From: Phycisphaerales bacterium
GTDB taxonomy: Bacteria > Planctomycetota > Phycisphaerae > Phycisphaerales > SM1A02
Reading direction: 5' to 3'
DNA length: 64,000 nucleotides
Assembly: GCA_029260575.1 (NCBI GenBank)
Contig: JAJDDB010000027.1
Span: 374,501-438,500 of the forward strand
This document shows positions 4,789 to 58,296 of the stretch, piece after piece. Under the pieces are notes generated by a model. The model had not been told where the DNA came from, did not search any database, and saw nothing but the letters and a program-made list of their open reading frames with translations. The translations under genes were made by a program, and so were the position numbers. The stretch's first letter is position 1. Each line of letters begins with the position of its first letter.

Positions 4789-4821
4789 AAAGCCCGCCAT
4801 CGCCAAATGGTGGGACCAACC
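4789..4821. repeat. Degenerate copy of the RAYT-associated hairpin repeat
   Basis: AAAG at 4789-4792 is followed by CCCGCCAT (4793-4800), a six-base loop, and ATGGTGGG (4807-4814), then ACCAACC. It has the same layout as the copies near 6.6 and 7.4 kb but with one G.T mismatch in the stem. It lies in the short intergenic space just before the STAS gene. Confidence 0.6.
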
Positions 4822-5867: not shown

Positions 5868-6512
5868 ATGAAATTCCAACTACGCGCTTCTGCGTGCGCG
5901 GTGCTGTGCGCTGCTACCACGCCTGTTGTCGCCGCTGAAGATGTCTGGAACGAGGTCGGCGATGCCGGCCAGACCATGTCCGATGCACAAACGATCACCG
6001 GTGCGCCCGGCCTGCTCGATCGCATCAACGGCACACTCGGCGACAACGGCGATGTCGACCTGTATGAAATCTGTCTCGACTTCCCCGCCGACTTTTCCGC
6101 CATTGCCACAAGCACCGTCGGCGGGCCGTCGCCGTTGCTGTTCCTGTTCAACGATGCGGGCATGGGTGTGAAATTCGCCGGCTCTTCTGATTCGTTTGCG
6201 CCGACATGGTTTGACAACCTCTTTATCGGCGCAGCCGGGCACTACTTCTTGGCAGTGGCAAGCCGCGATGCGCTCGCGTTGAACCTCACCGGCCAGCAGA
6301 TCTGGACACAGAACACCGGCGGCCAGTTCGCGCCCAACGGTCCCGGCGCAAACGAACACCTTGACGAGTGGAACTTCACCGAGGGGAGCAATCAAGGGCA
6401 ATACACTGTCGAGATTCGCGGTGTGGATTTCTTCCCGCCGGTCCCCTCGCCGGGCGCGCTTGCGCTGCTCGGCATCGCAGGCCTGCTCTTCACACGCAGA
6501 CGCAGAAGCTGA
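5868..6512 (+). CDS. Exported protein with PEP-CTERM-like sorting signal
   Basis: 214 residues. Short signal peptide MKFQLRASACAVLCAATTPVVAAED. The middle is acidic and beta-rich, resembling a bacterial pre-peptidase (PPC-like) domain (residues 45-125, DVDLYEICLDFPADFSAI). The C-terminus VPSPGALALLGIAGLLFTRRRRS is a proline-containing motif, one hydrophobic helix and a basic tail, the layout of PEP-CTERM signals cut by an exosortase. It is probably displayed on or released from the cell surface. Start at 5868 has GAGAGGAG upstream. Confidence 0.8.
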   Translation: MKFQLRASACAVLCAATTPVVAAEDVWNEVGDAGQTMSDAQTITGAPGLLDRINGTLGDNGDVDLYEICLDFPADFSAIATSTVGGPSPLLFLFNDAGMGVKFAGSSDSFAPTWFDNLFIGAAGHYFLAVASRDALALNLTGQQIWTQNTGGQFAPNGPGANEHLDEWNFTEGSNQGQYTVEIRGVDFFPPVPSPGALALLGIAGLLFTRRRRS

Positions 6513-6540
6513 ACAGCTCAAACCTCCTCAGCATCTTCCA

Positions 6541-6605
6541 AATCCCACCATTTCCAATAGGTGGGACCAACTCCCCAAAGCCCACCATCTCCAGATGGTG
6601 GGATC
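6541..6605. repeat. Two hairpin repeats upstream of RAYT-like gene
   Basis: First copy: CCCACC (6544-6549) with GGTGGG after a short loop. Second copy: AAAG (6577-6580), CCCACCATC (6581-6589), loop TCCA, GATGGTGGG (6594-6602), a perfect 9-bp stem. Both have runs of C outside. Same unit as at 7104-7165 and 7385-7414. Confidence 0.8.
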
Positions 6606-6655
6606 GCCCCCCAATAAACCCCAAAATCATAAACCTACTCGTTACACTCCCATTC

Positions 6656-7330
6656 ATGCCACCACCATGGCGCAACTCCTACAACTGCACAATCACAACT
6701 CACAACGCATGGCTCCCCGGCGACTCGCGCGGTTGGCGCAGCCGACACCATCGCGAACACGTCGAATGCGACTACCACAACCCGCCACCCACTGATCGCG
6801 ACAGCGCACTGCTCCGAAGCGCGCTGCAATCATCAGCACAACCTGCCATAGTCATTCCAGTCGAATTGCGCGCGTTCGTCCTGGACACATTTCTGGGGGC
6901 GTTACTGCATCATCACGCGCACGTCGAAGCGCTCTGCGTCGGCGGGCAACATCTGCATGTCCTGGCTCAGTTCCCAGCAACAGGAGTTGCTGGGCTTTCC
7001 GCAGAACACCAGCGCGCGGACGGTCTCAACCCCATTCCGCGCTATATCCTCGGCAAAGCCATGAGCTGGACCACACGCACCCTCAAGAAACACCTCCGCG
7101 CGCAAAGCCCACCATCCCAAAGCCCACCCACTCCCCAAAGCCCACCATCTCCAGATGGTGGGACCACACCCCCAGCCTACCCCGCAGGCCTCCAACCCCT
7201 CCACACCGCCACCCTCTGGGCCGCGCGACCCTCTATCAAACCCATCGCAGATGAATCACACTTCCACAACGCGCGCAACTACATCCTCGCGCACAAAACC
7301 CAGCGCGCCGCAATCTGGCCCCAAAAGTAA
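6656..7330 (+). CDS. RAYT-like HUH (Y1) transposase, divergent
   Basis: 224 residues. The N-terminus has TITTHNAWLPGDSRGWRSR, a motif I associate with planctomycete IS200-like/REP-associated proteins. An HUH motif, HLH at 99-101 in VGGQHLHVLAQFP, would bind the metal. Tyr130 in PRYILGKAMSWTTRTLKKH is the best candidate for the nicking tyrosine. The C-terminal block ATLWAARPSIKPIADESHF...YILAHKTQRAAIW resembles the RAYT end region. Residues 148-175 are a Ser/Pro-rich insert produced by hairpin-repeat DNA within the gene. No ribosome site is obvious; ATG at 6656 follows the repeats directly. Flanked on both sides by the same repeats, as expected for a RAYT acting on REP-like elements. Confidence 0.65.
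   Translation: MPPPWRNSYNCTITTHNAWLPGDSRGWRSRHHREHVECDYHNPPPTDRDSALLRSALQSSAQPAIVIPVELRAFVLDTFLGALLHHHAHVEALCVGGQHLHVLAQFPATGVAGLSAEHQRADGLNPIPRYILGKAMSWTTRTLKKHLRAQSPPSQSPPTPQSPPSPDGGTTPPAYPAGLQPLHTATLWAARPSIKPIADESHFHNARNYILAHKTQRAAIWPQK
7104..7165. repeat. Hairpin-repeat cluster inside the RAYT-like gene
   Basis: Three AAAG-CCCACC left halves in a row (7104, 7119, 7137), the last completed to a full hairpin: CCCACCATC at 7141-7149, TCCA, GATGGTGGG at 7154-7162. It lies in frame in the coding sequence and adds a Ser/Pro-rich linker instead of breaking the gene. Confidence 0.8.
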
Positions 7331-7342
7331 ATCGCACCCCCC

Positions 7343-7414
7343 AAAGCCCACCCACTACCGTAAGTGGAACCCCCCGCACCCCCCAAAGCCCACCCTCTCC
7401 TGAGGGTGGGACCG
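7343..7414. repeat. Two hairpin repeats just after RAYT-like gene
   Basis: AAAG at 7343-7346 with a variant stem CCACT/AGTGG (7352-7367); then AAAG at 7385-7388, CCCACCCTC (7389-7397), loop TCCT, GAGGGTGGG (7402-7410). In the second copy both arms differ from the 6581 copy in a compensating way (AT to CT on the left, AT to AG on the right), so the stem is kept while the sequence drifts. C-rich runs lie on both sides. Confidence 0.8.
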
Positions 7415-7425
7415 CCCCCCAACTC

Positions 7426-7752
7426 TCACCCCCACATACGCCACACCACCCACGCGCACGATGCTGCCGTCAAAACCCCCGCGCCAATCAGCAACACAAT
7501 CAATCGCCGTTTGCGTTGTTCCACGCGCGCAATATTCACGTAGTACCGGCCGTCACCCATATCGACGAGTGTGCCGCGTCGCGCTGCACCTTTCACAAAA
7601 TCCGGGTGCAGCTTGCCGATGCTCGCCGGCTTGCGGGCCGTGGTTTCAGACACAGCCCCGGCACTGATGAACGTGGCCACGACACCACTCTTGCGCGAGT
7701 TCCACGCCATCAATATCAACGCCACCGGCATGAGGAAGATCATGAATTCCAT
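7426..7752 (-). CDS. Hypothetical membrane protein, two helices
   Basis: 108 residues: an N-terminal helix MIFLMPVALILMAW, a soluble middle with GRYYVNIARVEQRKRR, and a second helix VLLIGAGVLTAASCAWVVW at the end. No family recognised. It follows the protease gene on the same strand with two bases between stop and start, so the two are probably co-transcribed. Confidence 0.6.
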   Translation of the reverse strand: MEFMIFLMPVALILMAWNSRKSGVVATFISAGAVSETTARKPASIGKLHPDFVKGAARRGTLVDMGDGRYYVNIARVEQRKRRLIVLLIGAGVLTAASCAWVVWRMWG

Positions 7753-22933: not shown

Positions 22934-22969
22934 TGCTCCCCCAAAGCCGGGCAACTCCCGTTGCCAGGA

Positions 22970-23794
22970 TCACACGCGAGTATCACTGCCATCCTTTGGC
23001 CGGCGCTTGATGAAATAGCTCAATAACTCACCGCGACTCGACACATCAAAGTGCTTGTGCAGCTTTACGATGTAATCGTGTACCGTCGCTGGGCTCAATC
23101 CCAACTCCGCTGCAACTTGTTTCTCGCTCAGCCCGTCAAGCAGCAACTCCAATGTTTGGCGTTGCCTCGGTGTCAGACCGGCTTTGCTGACTTGGCCGCG
23201 TAAACTGAGTTTCGTGCCGAGCAATGGCGTAATCTCTTCGCCGAGTATTCCCAACAGTTTGATTTTTCGACCGGCAATTGGCTCGTCACCATGAGCTCTG
23301 TTGCCACCCACCATGACAACCGAGCCGAGCGTCGGTGAGACGCGAAATGAACTCACCCATTCATCAAGCCCGATCGGCTCTACATAGTCTCGATAGAAAT
23401 CACTTGGATACCACACATCGTCAGGAACAACCATCGGCCGTGAGAATGAAACCGATCCCTCAGCAATCGCCGGCCCGAGCGCTTTGTCAATATTCACGAG
23501 CGGTGGACGATCATCGCCGTCGATTGATTGCAGATACAAACGCTCTGCTTCCTTGGTCTTCCATCCTTTCGATGCGATCGGAAGAATCTGCGGCAGATGT
23601 TCGTGCGTGCCCGGCATGACGAACTGCAGCACAGATGCGCCCAGCTCAAGCAATTCGATAACACCGTCCAGCAAAACCACCTGCCATTCGTCGGGATGAT
23701 CCCACTTATCACAGCATGCGTTAACGAGGCGAAACACCTCACGAATCTCGTTCACAGTTGGGTCTTCACTCTTCAAGACACTCCCCAATACCAC
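22970..23794 (-). CDS. LuxR-type transcriptional regulator
   Basis: 274 residues from a GTG at 23794. The C-terminus (about 207-252) LTPRQRQTLELLLDGLSEKQVAAELGLSPATVHDYIVKLHKHFDV is a classic LuxR/FixJ helix-turn-helix. The N-terminal 200 residues have no receiver signature and resemble a ligand- or light-independent sensor (PAS/GAF-like possible) with many Trp/Pro-rich loops. Monocistronic. Divergent from the exported protein at 24.0 kb, which it could control, by location only. Confidence 0.8.
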   Translation of the reverse strand: MVLGSVLKSEDPTVNEIREVFRLVNACCDKWDHPDEWQVVLLDGVIELLELGASVLQFVMPGTHEHLPQILPIASKGWKTKEAERLYLQSIDGDDRPPLVNIDKALGPAIAEGSVSFSRPMVVPDDVWYPSDFYRDYVEPIGLDEWVSSFRVSPTLGSVVMVGGNRAHGDEPIAGRKIKLLGILGEEITPLLGTKLSLRGQVSKAGLTPRQRQTLELLLDGLSEKQVAAELGLSPATVHDYIVKLHKHFDVSSRGELLSYFIKRRPKDGSDTRV

Positions 23795-42987: not shown

Positions 42988-43061
42988 CGCGGATGGCAGG
43001 GCTCGAACCTGCAACCTTCGGTTTCGTAGACCGACGCTCTATCCAGTTGAGCTACACCCGC
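42988..43061 (-). tRNA. tRNA-Arg (anticodon ACG)
   Basis: Cloverleaf on the reverse strand: acceptor GCGGGTG/CATCCGC with one G.T, D-stem GCTC/GAGC, anticodon stem TCGGT/ACCGA with loop CTACGAA (anticodon ACG), T-stem GCAGG/CCTGC with TTCGAGC. CCA is not encoded. ACG decodes CGU and, after inosine editing, CGC and CGA. Confidence 0.95.
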
Positions 43062-57937: not shown

Positions 57938-57939
57938 AT

Positions 57940-58012
57940 CGGGGTGACAGGATTTGAACCTGCGGCCTCGTCGTCCCGAACGACGCGCTCTACCAAGCTG
58001 AGCTACACCCCG
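57940..58012 (-). tRNA. tRNA-Pro (anticodon CGG)
   Basis: Acceptor CGGGGTG/CACCCCG, anticodon stem CGTCG/CGACG with loop TTCGGGA (anticodon CGG), T-arm GCAGG/CCTGT. No encoded CCA. Last of three leftward tRNAs. Confidence 0.95.
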
Positions 58013-58038
58013 CGAGAAAACTCGCGATACAGCCGAAG

Positions 58039-58121
58039 TGGGCGGAGCAGGATTCGAACCTGCGAAGGCGTACGCCAACGGGTTTACAGCCCGTCCCCTT
58101 TGGCCACTTAGGTATCCGCCC
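58039..58121 (-). tRNA. tRNA-Tyr (anticodon GTA)
   Basis: 83 nt, class II with long variable arm. Acceptor GGGCGGA/TCCGCCC, anticodon stem ACGGG/CCCGT, loop CTGTAAA (GTA), T-arm GCAGG/CCTGC. No encoded CCA. Confidence 0.95.
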
Positions 58122-58223
58122 TGAAAAAACCACCGGCGGGCTGCCGCTGGCAAGTCCGGGAGTCTACCCCCCCATCAATCGGCGATCAAGGCATCCGACA
58201 TGTGACGATAAATTGGCCTGGAA

Positions 58224-58296
58224 AGCCACCGGTGGGACTCGAACCCGCAACCTGCGGTTTACAAAACCGCTGCTCTGCCAATTGAGCTACGGTGGC
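58224..58296 (-). tRNA. tRNA-Thr (anticodon TGT)
   Basis: Acceptor GCCACCG/CGGTGGC, anticodon stem GCGGT/ACCGC with loop TTTGTAA (TGT). No encoded CCA. First of the leftward Thr-Tyr-Pro cluster. Confidence 0.95.

Follow-up and report, generated by a model that had tools for sequence, protein, structure and literature searches.

A probable AAAG-tagged REP/RAYT system in a planctomycete

RAYT transposases are thought to choose their cutting site depending on the tag located 5' of their REP hairpins. In the class 2 systems (TnpA-REP, Quentin 2018), a HUH-Y1 gene present in one copy is accompanied by a hairpin family of its own, which flanks the gene, is dispersed in the genome, and bears the 5' tetranucleotide GT[AG]G. 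The REPs with described biochemistry carry GTAG according to PMC8266576, and for the TnpA-REP of Marinomonas it is proposed there that the dinucleotide CT is chosen via A3 and G4 of this tag. In RAYT genes of subclass 2.4, REPs have already been described in frame between the HUH motif and the catalytic tyrosine (PMC6006769). The same source gives the residue four positions after this tyrosine (Tyr+4) as Asn in the Escherichia coli RAYT and as Gln in IS608. Class 3 (TnpA-Y1; Quentin 2018, PMC6006769) occurs mainly in planctomycetes and acidobacteria and is described with the foot CnGA and the motif Y----Q. IS200/IS605 insertion sequences are mobile multicopy units. Two of them, IS608 and ISDra2, spread on single-stranded DNA at replication forks (PMC6006769); IS608 uses the left guide AAAG and the cleavage site TTAC (PMC5934647). 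Short palindromes tagged GTAG or CGTC are, moreover, dispersed in genomes, those of planctomycetes included, and the CGTC repeats are described as having no transposase of their own (PMC3733652).

The locus described here lies in a window of 64,000 nucleotides—the whole stretch of DNA that was analyzed—from a Phycisphaerales bacterium, whose genome assembly comprises 4.11 Mb in 41 contigs and is 95.3% complete. It shares its arrangement with class 2 REP/RAYT systems—one copy of a HUH-Y1 gene, with dispersed hairpins on its flanks that have a 5' tetranucleotide—but the tag is AAAG instead of GT[AG]G, and Tyr+4 in the aligned proteins is nearly always His instead of the Asn of E. coli. Inverted hairpin pairs of the BIME or REPIN type are rare in this genome—there is one within 200 bp, both members of which are intragenic—and present at five relatives (L070, L081, L091, L097, and L125). 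The fold of the predicted protein model resembles that of the IS200/IS605 transposases, and AAAG is likewise the left guide of IS608; in contrast to these multicopy elements, no mobile IS unit was found here and the gene is present in one copy. Class 3 is alike in its richness in planctomycetes, its conserved N-terminal block, and its atypical gene-flanking hairpins, and is set apart, going by its published description, by CnGA and Y----Q as opposed to AAAG and Y-x3-H. The GTAG/CGTC palindromes are similar as short, tagged, and dispersed elements and differ in the tag. The system looks like a member of the REP/RAYT group with an apparently new tag, AAAG. Words starting with AAAG do not occur in the main texts of PMC3733652 and PMC6006769, both of which treat planctomycete REPs, and a literature search found no description of AAAG-tagged REPs among the titles and abstract openings listed.

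The hairpin unit and its copies

The transposase gene spans 6656–7330 on the forward strand and encodes 224 residues. The initial annotation had described a unit of AAAG followed by CCCACC..GGTGGG in its vicinity, and this unit is real: the exact word AAAGCCCACC occurs six times in the window, always within 6577–7394, compared with an average of 0.05 in dinucleotide shuffles. The complete hairpin AAAGCCCACC..GGTGGG occurs three times (6577, 7137, and 7385) and never in the shuffles. These three copies were among five named by the initial annotation and stand as full hairpins, whereas of the other two the one at 6544 follows AAAT (6540–6543) and the one at 7343 is degenerate and folds with 5 bp only. 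A covariance model of the hairpin, R1, was built on an alignment (A4) of 30 copies, 29 of them distinct. It recovers eight full-length copies in the window at more than 30 bits—a matter of bookkeeping rather than an independent test, as all eight are among the 30 rows of A4.

On the 5' flank of the gene, the AAAT-tagged variant, aligned in A4, covers 6540–6569 (+, 35.6 bits), and an AAAG-tagged REP hairpin covers 6577–6606 (+, 50.2 bits), with a DNA folding energy of −9.4 kcal/mol and a z score of −4.1. On the 3' flank, the degenerate AAAG copy at 7343–7372 (+, 32.4 bits, weak fold) is followed by an AAAG hairpin at 7385–7414 (+, 45.8 bits, −11 kcal/mol). Within the gene, an AAAG hairpin lies at 7137–7166 (+, 49.6 bits). 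Several features add to those named before: an inverted AAAG hairpin within the gene at 6969–6998 (−, 46 bits), two intragenic half-copies that match AAAGCCCACC exactly at 7104 and 7119 (7104–7136, +), and two dispersed copies at 4789–4818 (+, 37.9 bits) and 22943–22972 (+, 43.3 bits). As side observations, the gene upstream of the transposase (5868–6512, +) has a PEP-CTERM-like end and a weak, below cut-off similarity to the DVUA0089 family, and the Rfam matches in the window comprise four tRNA genes only, at 57939–58296 and 42988–43061 (−).

The unit can be written as AAAG-CCC-N6-TCCN-N6'-GGG-A. In A4, 93.5% of the cells of its nine-pair stem are paired, and six of the nine pairs show changes on both sides in some copy. 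Such double-sided changes amount to 28 cells—shuffles give 7.0 ± 1.9, with 0 of 500 as high—and the covariation score of 0.323 exceeds that of shuffles (0.096 ± 0.018) and of slid versions of the alignment (at most 0.063). The compensatory change from CATC/GATG to CCTC/GAGG, on which the initial annotation had built, is borne out by A4. Across 54 genomic copies, AAAG, the CCC/GGG base of the stem, the TCCN loop, and the A after the stem are constant and the middle of the stem is variable; each base of the AAAG foot is kept in 93–98% of these copies, the model that found them being itself built from such copies. A by-eye look at the flanks for a TTAC or CT site beside the copies revealed no constant one; the recurrent features are a C preceding AAAG and an A-[TA]-C that follows the stem. 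Two pairs of copies (C27:218515 with C27:303696 and C16:1032 with C9:401997) are followed by about 40 nearly identical bases, which indicates that some hairpins belong to longer duplicated units.

Genome-wide, R1 identifies at least 55 copies at E < 1e-5, with 150 of 1638 first-look candidates scored; the strict pattern is found six times, its reversed control not at all. The initial annotation had let its case depend on whether the genome holds further copies, and it evidently does. Six of the at least 55 copies lie within 900 bp around and inside the transposase gene, 13 lie within 55 kb on contig C3, and the remainder is scattered. According to a crude gene caller, 40 of 54 copies are intergenic, a figure that includes the two inside the transposase gene, which the caller missed. 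The transposase gene itself is present in a single copy.

Both copies within the gene (6969–6998 and 7137–7166) are in frame and lie between the HUH motif and the tyrosine. The spacing between these motifs is 110 residues in the window protein, compared with a median of 59 (55–126) in 68 relatives in which both were found, and the surplus is largely REP-encoded. The copy at 7137 is read as QSPPSPDGG, and the same nine residues are encoded by a REP of the relative L070 elsewhere between HUH and Tyr. The relatives L060 and L061 contain a counterpart of the inverted copy at the corresponding position; copy and counterpart alike encode PATGVAGL, and the four differing codons are all synonymous. 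On the AAAG strand, this counterpart keeps eight of nine pairs, with one double-sided change from A-T to C-G; the remaining pair is broken as A-C, which corresponds to a G-T wobble on the opposite strand. The comparison suggests that the in-gene hairpin may have been maintained between the window gene and L060/L061, to which one double-sided change lends modest support. In 6 of the 68 relatives, the interval from HUH to Tyr contains strictly paired AAAG hairpins. As in-frame REPs are known from subclass 2.4, the in-gene REPs described here are a recurrence under another tag.

The transposase, its relatives, and their tags

The proposed HLH motif and catalytic tyrosine of the transposase are located at residues 99–101 and at Tyr209 in an alignment (A5) of 71 proteins. 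This alignment and the tree derived from it comprise the window protein and 70 of 80 related loci, 10 short, broken, or doubtful frames having been dropped. G26, R28, H35, D39, H101, and Y209 are invariant, and H99 and H213—the latter at Tyr+4—are kept in more than 90%; a motif search limited to His, Gln, and Asn at Tyr+4 gave 67 His, 2 Gln, and 1 Asn. The window protein deviates at the near-invariant positions H10 (Asn) and G38 (Cys).

The similarity to Y1/RAYT profiles that the initial annotation had predicted is seen in the relatives and not in the window protein alone, which has no family match in Pfam or NCBIfam and just one match in PHROGs, at E 0.11. In a set of 22 aligned members, the window protein included, the NCBIfam family REP_Tyr_transpos matches 14 (best E 1e-5) and Pfam Y1_Tnp matches five (best E 5.8e-4), both at E ≤ 1, and a PDB search with a profile of these 22 recovers Y1 transposases, with E values of 0.004 or higher. 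The AlphaFold model (pLDDT 85.4, pTM 0.82) positions Tyr209 in a helix of residues 200–216. Its best Foldseek match is 4er8—the E. coli REP transposase in complex with its hairpin substrate, a REP—at E 1.4e-3 and probability 1.00, and none falls below 1e-3. In VIA-align, ISDra2 is nearest (Z 12.6 over 110 residues) and 4er8 reaches Z 10.3 over 125 residues, with the first unrelated fold at Z 8.6; the IS608 transposase is likewise near to the model. The motifs and the predicted fold, shared with solved members, place the window protein in the Y1 HUH superfamily. In five close gene pairs of the family, dN (0.02–0.05) is lower than dS (0.08–0.54) throughout.

Relatives are present in 12 of 151 genomes of the same family, its own genome counted. 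When GTDB contigs were searched with an alignment as query, 167 stretches were confirmed, and the best 80 loci were retained, nearly all of them from Planctomycetota judging by record titles; a single-sequence query confirmed none. Around these 80 loci, a model-free census collected hairpins with perfect stems of at least 7 bp and loops of 3–8, near (inside the gene or up to 300 nt from it) or far (more than 800 nt away); it thereby misses the longer-loop AAAGCCC hairpins of L113 and L119. The tag AAAGCC sits on 65 of the 188 near hairpins, compared with 10 of the 215 far ones, and is present at 32 of these best 80 of the 167 stretches, with a near/far odds ratio of 10.8 over hairpins and near-identical genomes that are not independent. 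Any AAAG tag is found on 69 of 188 near and 15 of 215 far hairpins and at 38 of 80 loci; requiring CC after AAAG loses seven of these 38 and gains L120. If the foot is defined more strictly, as the tetranucleotide directly preceding the stem at its full extension, AAAG is found on 35 of the 158 near hairpins, compared with 7 of the 128 far ones, and at 19 of 80 loci. GTAG, by comparison, is found on 1 of 188 near hairpins and GTGG on none.

AAAG is the commonest hairpin tag by loci at the related genes, and over half of the 80 loci are without an AAAG hairpin in the census. GAAGCC is found at 19 loci and CAAGCC at 11, from which it follows that part of the clade bears a variant first base. Stems and loops differ between related genes; the AAAG foot, usually with the first CCC, recurs. 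One clade of 15 rows shows no AAAG in the census, yet its members L113 and L119 carry the longer-loop hairpins mentioned above. Mapped on the protein tree, the AAAG label requires 13 changes, compared with 24.1 for shuffled labels (0 of 500 as low). The nearest relatives of the window gene—L060, L061, and L070—carry the same tag; one of the comparisons behind this took in 100 of 107 related loci, all but L133–L139. R1 itself finds matches at E ≤ 1e-4 in 10 of 31 related genomes, namely in 7 of the 11 that encode a relative of the window protein and in 3 of the other 20; the two genomes whose gene is the nearest contain 10 and 8 matches.

In the genus of the genomes G065, G087, and G036, a search for insertion polymorphism found the alignable hairpin sites to be shared by descent, with no clean empty site. 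One slot in this genus is occupied by two different genes of the RAYT clade, L243 (G036:C82) and L244 (G087:C293), in opposite orientation and accompanied by different hairpins, suggesting that genes at this site have turned over.

Strand orientation and the origin of the copies

Judged by local GC skew, the strand that carries AAAG is the C-rich one for 52 of 54 copies and in 30 of 31 regions, regions that share a contig not being independent; these counts cover 54 of the at least 55 copies, C4:354064 being left out. The two exceptions are the inverted in-gene copy and one copy on C32. Where the stretch skew is at least 0.05 in size, all 38 of 38 copies follow it, and after masking of the copies, 50 of 54 are in line with the skew of intergenic DNA and likewise 50 of 54 with third-position skew. 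This skew-linked orientation fits a spread on single-stranded DNA at replication forks, by analogy to IS608 and ISDra2. It is possible, if rather unlikely, that the bias is instead a by-product—either of insertion 3' of C-rich tracts or of selection on the hairpin strand—without any coupling to replication. The base before AAAG is indeed C in 81% of the copies, with about 60% C at the three preceding positions, and GC skew is unrelated to gene orientation (r 0.05), which leaves the leading strand uncertain. However, under a null model in which strands are drawn from the CCC tracts found in that same intergenic DNA, 36.2 of 54 copies should agree with the skew, where 50 are seen (0 of 20,000 simulations as high), and for CCCC tracts 37.5 are expected and 49 observed (P 1.5e-4). 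The orientation bias thus exceeds what C-tract targeting explains, and selection is compatible with these numbers. The markers of the leading strand conflict: a partial 16S rRNA gene on the minus strand of C3, with negative skew nearby, points to a G-rich leading strand, and rpoB on the plus strand of C27, with negative neighboring stretches, gives the opposite sign. If the leading strand is G-rich, the AAAG strand would be the leading-strand template, a polarity opposite to that of IS608.

The copies might also have been spread by another or a lost Y1 transposase, the window gene being merely an old host of insertions, which we consider improbable. At E ≤ 1, Y1_Tnp does match five other places in the genome, three of them over the cut-off, hairpin clusters on C3 and C28 lie within tens of kilobases of Y1 matches, and the window protein has lost H10 and G38. 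Against this, four of the five further matches and a paralogue on C6 have different flanking repeats of their own, and R1 finds a single match in these six loci, more than 800 bases from the gene match. The AAAG tag is, in addition, shared with L060, L061, and L070, which are closest to the window gene, and the HUH motif and tyrosine of the window protein are intact, with dN 0.44 and dS 1.84 (near saturation) between the window gene and L061. The Y1 locus on C20 has a 14-nt two-copy repeat only.

Two of the other loci are described here for themselves. The Y1 gene on C3 (L248, 1372–2076) is flanked by AAAGCCGCGACC..GGTCGCG repeats, which likewise have an AAAG foot. On C6, a second gene of the RAYT clade that lacks the Tyr region (L002, 1351–1812, −) lies between 102-nt direct repeats with inverted arms and looks like a broken element with terminal repeats.

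It is highly improbable that the hairpins are bidirectional intrinsic terminators that start with AAAGCCC and end with GGGCTTT by chance: such symmetric hairpins do occur in some relatives—a few with longer T runs (L082 and L101)—and several own-genome copies lie just beyond gene ends, but CTTT stands on the 3' side in only 2 of 54 own-genome copies and a terminator scan of 6300–7700 gave two sites where 1.4 are expected, neither at a hairpin copy, on which grounds the reading is rejected for the own-genome hairpins, and T follows CTTT in just 6% of the copies read in reverse (equivalent to A before AAAG), with the constant TCC loop, the two in-gene copies, and the skew-linked orientation left unexplained. 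Some of the symmetric AAAGCCC..GGGCTTT hairpins of the relatives could be terminators.

A proposed guide model for the AAAG tag

The initial annotation had proposed a REP/RAYT pair in a planctomycete, which proves largely right in view of the at least 55 copies, the profile matches of the relatives, and 4er8 as best Foldseek match. We consider it quite likely that the locus forms a REPtron, i.e., a single-copy RAYT-like transposase with its own dispersed REPs, in which AAAG acts as guide, Tyr209 cuts, and the hairpins spread on one strand. Its observed basis is the covarying hairpin, the copy number of at least 55, the siting of copies around and in the gene, the tag at the relatives, and the skew-linked orientation; the predicted HUH/Y1 fold with its conserved catalytic residues supports it as well.

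In this REPtron, the protein would most likely bind the hairpin on single-stranded DNA, with the 5' AAAG serving as guide and Tyr209 cutting beside the hairpin. The hairpins would then be copied or moved elsewhere on one strand of the replicating chromosome. We infer the role of AAAG from three points: it is the commonest tag by loci at the related genes, it is constant while the stems vary, and the left guide of IS608 is AAAG as well (PMC5934647). As AAAG retains A3 and G4 of GTAG, the cleavage site might be CT, following the A3G4 rule put forward for systems tagged GTAG, or else TTAC as in IS608.

A wider reading, to which we give an even chance, is that AAAG marks a third superfamily of bacterial REP tags. 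It would belong to a phylum-wide RAYT clade of its own with the motif Y-x3-H, use the guide of the left end of IS608, and spread on one replication strand only, with REPs lodged repeatedly and in frame in the transposase gene, in which the coding sequence and the hairpin would be maintained jointly.

A natural AAAG system—with AG kept at positions 3 and 4 and the guide of IS608—makes the guide model testable by comparison of tags, and may link the IS200/IS605 elements to the RAYTs. Copies that follow the skew make the coupling of REP spread to replication testable on a genome. Finally, the REPs within the transposase gene raise a testable question, namely whether they reflect self-targeting or self-regulation.
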